Source: Bacteroidota bacterium (lineage in GTDB: Bacteria; Bacteroidota; Bacteroidia; UKL13-3). Taken from it: a stretch of DNA of 64,000 nt. Under the pieces are notes generated by a model that was not told the DNA's origin, did not search any database, and saw nothing but the letters and a program-made list of their open reading frames with translations. Shown here piece by piece: positions 57,097 through 57,828 of this stretch (position 1 is the stretch's first letter; every line of letters starts with the position of its first letter). Both the position numbers and the translations under genes were made by a program. The stretch covers positions 62,001-126,000 of the forward strand of contig JAAFJM010000006.1 in assembly GCA_013298895.1 (NCBI GenBank), given 5' to 3'.

Positions 57097-57136
57097 AAAA
57101 AAAGAGCCGTATCAAAAATTTGATATGGCTCTTTTA
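57097..57136 (+). terminator. Rho-independent terminator
   Basis: AAAAAGAGCCGTATCAAAAATTTGATATGGCTCTTTT. Confidence 0.8.
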
Positions 57137-57215
57137 TTTTATATTCCAAACATAGGCTAATTATTGTTTTATATCATTCCGCAGGTACACTTGATTGATA
57201 GCTTTAAAACTACTT

Positions 57216-57326
57216 TTAATGGAAAGCAAACCCAAGGAAAGGAGATTCCTACTGAATGACTCAACGCAAAAATCAAAGTCATTCTGGAAGAATCCCCTTA
57301 ATACACTTGATTGTTGGCTATTATAG
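57216..57326. repeat. Left copy of ~111-nt direct repeat with imperfect internal palindrome
   Basis: TTAATGGAAAGCAAACCCAAGGAAAGGAGATTCCTACTGAATGAC...AGTCATTCTGGAAGAATCCCC...GGCTATTATAG; pairs with 57639..57750 (6 mismatches, 1 indel by eye). Confidence 0.95.
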
Positions 57327-57606
57327 AATTGCAAACTTTTTTAGTTTTGGATTTACTGATTTAATTAATGTTAATTTATTCTCTCTTGATAATGATTTCA
57401 ATTCTTTTTCTCTCTTAATTGCTTCATTAATATTTTGAAAAACTTCAAAATAGATCAATTCATAACAAAAATATTTGCCAGCAAAAGTTTCAGGTTTCCC
57501 TTTATTACTATGATGTTCAGAAATTCTTCTTTCTAATGAATTGGTTACGCCAACATAAAGGATTAGAAGTTATATAAACATAATTGTTTAAATCAAAATT
57601 ATTCAT
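57321..57606 (-). pseudogene. GIY-YIG family endonuclease, frameshifted
   Basis: MNNFDLNNYVYITSN / LYVGVTNSLERRISEHHSNKGKPETFAGKYFCYELIYFEVFQNINEAIKREKELKSLSRENKLTLIKSVNPKLKKFAIL*; span of 286 nt is not a multiple of 3. Confidence 0.88.
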
Positions 57607-57638
57607 AACAAAATAACTTAAACAAATATAGATTTATG

Positions 57639-57750
57639 TTAATGGAAAGCAAACCCTAAGGAAAGGAGATTCCTACTAAATGACCCAACGCAAAAGTCAA
57701 AGTCATTCTGGAAGAATCCCATTATTACACTTGATTTTTGGCTATTATAG
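57639..57750. repeat. Right copy of ~111-nt direct repeat
   Basis: Near-identical to 57216..57326 in the same orientation. Confidence 0.95.
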
Positions 57751-57787: not shown

Positions 57788-57828
57788 AAAAAATAGGTTG
57801 TTTCAAAATTTGAAACAACCTATTTTTT
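57788..57828 (-). terminator. Rho-independent terminator (41-nt perfect palindrome)
   Basis: AAAAAATAGGTTGTTTCAAAATTTGAAACAACCTATTTTTT. Confidence 0.85.

Follow-up and report, generated by a model that had tools for sequence, protein, structure and literature searches.

Few intergenic repeats of bacteria are as common as REPs. In the REP/RAYT systems (GTAG REPs, REPINs/BIMEs and REPtrons; PMC2817692, PMC3116915), short tagged hairpins occur as inverted pairs and as dispersed solo copies, the gene is flanked by its own repeat class, several classes are found per genome, and gene and repeat co-evolve. The tag is GTAG and the enzyme is an HUH tyrosine transposase of the IS200/IS605 type. The CGTC REPs, one of two REP superfamilies, were reported in 2013 without a dedicated enzyme, no associated enzyme gene having been found (Di Nocera et al. 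2013, PMC3733652). They include dRS3 of Neisseria and RPE-4 and RPE-6 of Rickettsia, and S. meliloti is listed among their hosts. Their traits are an unpaired terminal CGTC (or TGTC/CCTC) tag, AT as the first stem pairs, a stem of 8-9 bp, a loop of 4-5 nt and a CCA tail, and they are mostly arranged as head-to-head dimers (PMC3733652).

The locus described here lies in a 64-kb stretch of Bacteroidota DNA, hereafter the window, and is probably a dead copy of a mobile unit in which a small GIY-YIG gene sits between cognate REP hairpins of the CGTC type. Units of this layout (REP-GIY-REP) share with REP/RAYT all the features of hairpin and gene arrangement listed above; the tag, however, is GTC, and the enzyme is a GIY-YIG hydrolase of ~99 aa. 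Since the only Pfam family matched by the window gene is PF01541 (GIY-YIG), REP-GIY-REP falls outside REP/RAYT, although it may act in a similar way. A likeness also exists to the free-standing or intron-encoded GIY-YIG homing endonucleases, selfish small nuclease genes whose spread is expected via repair of the break that they make. Those enzymes target a single cognate allele, whereas REP-GIY-REP appears to move with structured, dispersed repeats, was not seen in introns and gave no match in phage records. In the open-access literature of PubMed Central, including some papers that cite Di Nocera et al. (2013), we found no link between GIY-YIG enzymes and REPs.

Two REP pairs bracket a broken GIY-YIG gene

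The left repeat (57216..57326, + strand, 111 nt) and the right repeat (57639..57750, + strand, 112 nt) are direct repeats with 94% identity over 111/112 nt (E=1.1e-42 in a search within the genome), as the first-pass annotation had described by eye. It had also read a long imperfect palindrome into each copy. The hairpins themselves are supported, but a single long one is not: each repeat consists of two small hairpins, GTCATTC..GAATCTC (minus strand) and GTCATTCTGGAAGAATCCC (plus strand), whose GTC ends point inward, towards one another. Each repeat is thus a head-to-head pair of CGTC-type REP hairpins, and the general arrangement of a unit is GTC-AT..stem..loop..stem'..AT-CTC.

In the left repeat, the unit GTCATTCAGTAGGAATCTC (57242..57260, minus strand; stem ATTC/GAAT, tag GTC, tail CTC) fits the covarying consensus given below, and the unit GTCATTCTGGAAGAATCCC (57278..57296, plus strand; stem ATTCT/AGAAT) points its tail to the gene. 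The right repeat holds a degenerate unit, GTCATTTAGTAGGAATCTC (57666..57684, minus strand), placed via alignment to the left copy and with its tail pointing to the gene start, and a second copy of GTCATTCTGGAAGAATCCC (57702..57720, plus strand). An extra partial copy, TACACTTGATTGATAGCT (57186..57203, plus strand; repeat family D2), corresponds to the right tail of the repeat and is probably a decayed third unit; extra repeat units are also present at the syntenic site of the sister genomes G004 and G007. Folding energies of the single window copies were unremarkable (z = -1.6 and -0.2), and support for the hairpins therefore rests on covariation across relatives.

Three exact hairpin units were found in the window, all at the GIY-YIG locus, as against 0-2 in each of 20 Markov-resampled windows. 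The repeat also occurs elsewhere: the 111-mer gave 11 matches genome-wide, and the generic hairpin pattern GAGATTNC(3-30)GNAATGAC gave 35 matches in the genome of the window versus 1 for the reversed control. Beyond the window, repeat units lie singly and in a cluster. The same genome holds an array of ~156-nt units (G000:C9:20700-22000, locus L011) in which GAGATTC..GAATGAC hairpins alternate with GAGATGC..GCATGAC hairpins, without a GIY-YIG gene.

Between the repeats lies what remains of a small GIY-YIG nuclease gene of the YhbQ/UPF0213-like kind (57321..57606, minus strand; PF01541), whose 82-aa open part matches PF01541 with E=3e-13. Its stop codon (57321-57323) is within the left repeat, as had been noted at first sight, and its ATG (57604-57606) lies 32 nt from the right repeat. 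The gene is split over two frames with the break at the YVGVT region, and it has a 14-nt deletion relative to the syntenic homologue of G004, which is intact and encodes 99 aa. This bears out the earlier reading of a frameshifted copy that lacks codons near YVGVT and looks dead. In G007, the syntenic site carries a broken GIY-YIG copy and four repeat units. The window copy is the one small GIY-YIG gene of its genome, which also encodes three larger PF01541 proteins.

The hairpins covary around constant ends

We picked elements by their constant ends alone, GTCAT and ATCTC, which gave 271 distinct sequences. The variable triplets next to these ends were fully complementary in 145/271 elements, whereas shuffling the partners gave 16.6 +/- 3.8 (maximum 31 in 2000 shuffles). 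The variable stem triplets were of 15 types, and the consensus reads GTC-AT-NNN-GA-loop-GA-N'N'N'-AT-CTC. The conserved GA dinucleotides after the 5' variable triplet and before the 3' one might pair as tandem sheared G.A. Between the GTC and CTC flanks, an internal TC.TC mismatch is left, which recalls the mismatches of REPs.

When stems were searched under the GTC constraint alone, most of them started with AT. The base that precedes GTC was T or C in 118/145 covarying elements; the window units read AGTC. Adjacent hairpins were arranged head-to-head in 130 cases, tail-to-tail in 155 and head-to-tail in 78, so that inverted pairing is present but an excess of head-to-head pairs, the arrangement of the window repeat, is absent. 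The orientation of the hairpin nearest to the gene was weakly biased in Bacteroidota (63/53 upstream and 73/50 downstream).

These hairpins share with the CGTC REPs the GTC tag after T or C, the AT first pairs, a palindromic stem, dimers and a dispersed intergenic location. They differ in having usually a CT tail and not CCA, often 5-bp stems with the conserved GA..GA and longer loops, and tail-to-tail pairs that are no rarer than head-to-head ones. Since tail and loop depart from the canonical form, we term the Bacteroidota hairpins a variant; as judged from these sequence features, the window repeat belongs, as such a variant, with the known CGTC-tagged REP superfamily.

The hairpins accompany one GIY-YIG subfamily

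GIY-YIG genes were gathered by protein similarity, blind to their flanks, and their surroundings were scanned for GTC, a 5-nt stem, a loop, the complementary stem and CTC. Three Bacteroidota locus sets were used (~140 loci in total, with the slight overlap that L040/L077 and L030/L147 are identical loci). In the first set (30 loci), 28 hairpins lay <300 nt from the gene versus 4 at >500 nt, the far region being the larger, and a second set of 30 further loci across the phylum gave 38 near versus 6 far. Among all 4096 flank-triplet pairs tried on this second set, GTC/CTC ranked first, and its reverse complement GAG/GAC, which is the same motif, came near the top. These controls, together with the shuffles described above, rule out chance hairpins. 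The third set comprised 80 named loci with flanks of up to 5 kb, in which hairpins per intergenic kb fell steadily from 2.78 (<100 nt) to 0.17 (2-5 kb). Because it is the density per intergenic kb that falls with distance, the clustering is more than an effect of intergenic space, and this artefact is ruled out as well.

We then grouped 209 distinct genes by profile score and asked for a hairpin within 250 nt. In the high-scoring core subfamily, 130/158 genes had one, 95 of them on both sides, whereas the intermediate-scoring genes, many of which reside in shared genomes, had one in only 3/21 cases and serve as an internal negative control. The very low-scoring genes had a hairpin in 9/30 cases, mostly within one tandem array. 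By the GTC/CTC definition, no hairpin was found within 250 nt of 28/158 core genes, about a fifth. Genomes with the gene were richer in ATTNC hairpins (mean 7.0 vs 1.4, p=5e-4). Some hairpin-rich genomes had no detected GIY-YIG gene (G075, G139 and G068); GTAG REPs likewise persist in genomes after REPtron loss (PMC3733652). The partnership suggested in the first-pass annotation, REP/RAYT-like but with a GIY-YIG enzyme, is supported. Neither of the two outcomes that it had named as contradicting this, a repeat confined to this site and GIY-YIG homologues that lack it throughout, was observed, and the association with the GIY-YIG subfamily is replicated in three Bacteroidota sets and also seen outside the phylum (see below).

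The protein is a single GIY-YIG domain of ~95-105 aa, like the UPF0213/YhbQ-like proteins (PF01541), and its best solved relatives by profile are 1ZG2 and 1YWL (E=1.6e-8 and 9.8e-7). These were deposited under hypothetical-protein names only and without a repeat partner, and the association with REPs is confined here to one subfamily. G24, R32, H36, E71, K75, K82 and N90 are invariant in 162/162 aligned genes, so that the GIY-YIG motif with the catalytic Arg, Glu and Asn (G24, R32, E71, N90) is kept in every one, the window copy itself being frameshifted. Since the active site is intact in each of the 162 genes, the protein presumably functions as a nuclease.

Gene and hairpin class travel together

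Each GIY-YIG gene carries its own hairpin class. The similarity between the upstream and the downstream hairpin of one gene was 0.76, compared with 0.22 between random genes, and the similarity of hairpins between loci climbed with protein identity, from 0.22 (40-45%) to 0.80 (>80%). Mapped on the protein tree, the stem class changed 52 times, versus 94.6 times with shuffled labels (minimum 85). In genomes with many copies, the hairpins of a gene were similar to those of its close protein relatives from other genomes (mean 0.56), whereas similarity to the hairpins of co-resident genes was low (0.13); the relative from another genome was the closer one for 24/25 genes (Wilcoxon p=1.2e-7). This co-resident control rules out the background of the host genome as the cause of the matching hairpins, and the pattern indicates that the gene and its hairpins travel together between genomes.

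Two less probable readings have to be weighed against these data. In the first, which we regard as unlikely, a selfish GIY-YIG gene of the homing type uses pre-existing REPs as mere landing sites, and something else spreads the REPs. GIY-YIG nucleases are classical homing enzymes, the genes sit inside REP clusters and some genomes hold REPs without the gene, all of which would fit. However, the hairpin class tracks the protein and not the host genome; in the S. meliloti record CP090106, all four REP copies found (<=3 mismatches, 3.7 Mb) flank the gene; and CGTC REPs have no other known enzyme (PMC3733652). The second reading, in which the hairpins terminate or regulate transcription of the GIY-YIG gene and its neighbours in the ordinary way and have no role in mobility, is far less probable still. 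REPs can serve as RNA elements (PMC3733652) and the hairpins do lie near gene ends, but they are found on both sides of the gene, in both orientations, as inverted pairs and in tandem units, they occur as dispersed solo copies with constant GTC/CTC flanks, and they mark the ends of homologous units. We therefore reject a function as terminators only. Two strong palindromic terminators flank the insertion in the window (57097-57138 and 57788-57828), and the unit-free site of genome G002 has one such terminator.

CGTC-type REPs bracket GIY-YIG genes in other phyla

Outside Bacteroidota, relatives were searched by tblastn against plasmid records, several of which are chromosome-sized, and were recovered from Proteobacteria and a cyanobacterium. 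The Proteobacterial and cyanobacterial genes, and those of Balneola, are bracketed by CGTC-type REPs. GTCATCCTCGGGCTTGACCCGAGGATCCA, GTCATTCCCGCGCAGGCGGGAATCYA and similar sequences bracket or neighbour the genes of Sinorhizobium, Shinella, Rhizobium, Neorhizobium and Azospirillum, and likewise those of Sphingobium, Novosphingobium, Aeromonas, Photobacterium and Neisseria. In Proteobacteria, the repeats have the full form, with CGTC and a CCA-type tail, and the copy GTCATTCCCGCGAAGGCGGGAATCTA of genome G133 is nearly the Neisseria form. In this smaller and GC-richer set, hairpin density was 3.3/kb near the gene and 0.65 far from it; GTC as a plain prefix did not come out as the top triplet, because other registers of these long stems score equally, which weakens the test here.

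These repeats are the CGTC REPs that Di Nocera et al. (2013) described without an enzyme gene; at the loci studied here they come with a GIY-YIG gene. On the strength of these sequence comparisons, the GIY-YIG enzyme is the best candidate for the partner of CGTC-type REPs, a repeat class that is both large and old. Three of the records, CP090106.1, NZ_CP119140.1 and NZ_AP026896.1, are listed as plasmids but measure 2.2-4.9 Mb and look like mislabelled chromosomes; CP090106 carries gltA and lpxA/lpxB.

Units are gained or lost, and homology ends at the hairpins

Small GIY-YIG genes reach 21-22 per genome; G249, for instance, has about ten. At the site of the window, the unit is present in the genome of the window (G000), in G004 and in G007, while G002 has only ~72 nt there. 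Similarly, ~600 nt with the gene and two hairpins of G133 are missing from G253, the neighbours being collinear. The empty sites that had been called for thus exist in relatives, and presence and absence at both amount to gain or loss of the unit, in either direction. At these two filled/empty comparisons, neither a target-site duplication nor a precise insertion point was seen, which sets the unit apart from MITEs, defined by terminal inverted repeats that match a resident transposase together with a target-site duplication.

Where paralogous units were compared, homology stopped at the hairpins: between L201 and L205 it spans 1161-1819, and the hairpins begin at 1161 and end at 1816; it likewise ends at hairpins for L207/L217 and L199/L213. 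Solo repeats and complete units coexist. In G195, the gene sits between tandem 114-nt units of hairpin pairs, and other contigs carry the same pairs without it; in G133, >12 solo copies of the REP of the unit are dispersed. The least probable reading has gene and hairpins carried along by a larger mobile element, or accumulating independently in recombination hot spots: IS elements lie near some loci (e.g. Rhizobium CIAT894), but the unit showed no further conserved gene, its homology ends at hairpins whose class is matched on both sides, and low-scoring GIY-YIG genes of shared genomes lack the hairpins.

A model for REP-GIY-REP mobility

We consider REP-GIY-REP a likely mobile unit, a counterpart of REP/RAYT that is built around an unrelated nuclease. 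The unit is laid out as hairpin, gene and hairpin, the hairpins often being inverted pairs. The nuclease would most likely recognise its own REP hairpin, as single-stranded DNA or as an extruded cruciform, through its class-specific stem together with the GTC tag and the conserved AT steps, and would nick or cut at this cognate hairpin. Host repair would then copy from another REP-bearing locus; the products would be single REPs, REP pairs and, now and then, a complete REP-gene-REP unit, and long near-identical repeats that flank the gene, such as those of the window, would act as homology. Such a process would be homing-like and unlike the HUH chemistry of RAYTs. It is established for the GIY-YIG superfamily that DNA is hydrolysed without a covalent intermediate; joining is therefore expected from host repair, and single-strand transposition of the RAYT kind is unlikely. 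As the enzymes alone are unable to join strands, mobility would need host repair.

With somewhat less confidence, we favour the broader proposal that CGTC REPs and GIY-YIG genes form a distinct, ancient class of mobile elements found in several phyla, in which a hydrolytic nuclease specific for a stem class amplifies hairpins via host repair. The CGTC REPs now have a specific candidate enzyme, and dozens of natural enzyme/hairpin pairs, several per genome and with predicted differences in specificity, are available. If the enzyme cuts its cognate hairpin, REPs would have a new chemistry of mobility, and a set of nucleases specific for hairpins would be at hand. The model, if true, would further assign a function to many genes annotated just as 'GIY-YIG nuclease family protein', and would imply that REP systems arose a second time, independently of REP/RAYT in mechanism.

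Other GIY-YIG loci

In the plasmid AZO_p3 of Azospirillum lipoferum 4B (L276), a GIY-YIG unit separates sufB from sufC within an apparent operon. Three members of the genus of the window carry a different small GIY-YIG gene ~2 kb from a BrxB-like gene (G001:C30, G003:C407 and G009:C23). Two tandem arrays with a period of ~365 nt hold eight (L252, G109:C34:6988-9745) and five (L253, G228:C1:135227-136945) small GIY-YIG genes. Most copies of the first array are separated by a different hairpin, GTCTCCGCCCGAGGCGGACTA, and every copy of the second is interrupted by TAG.
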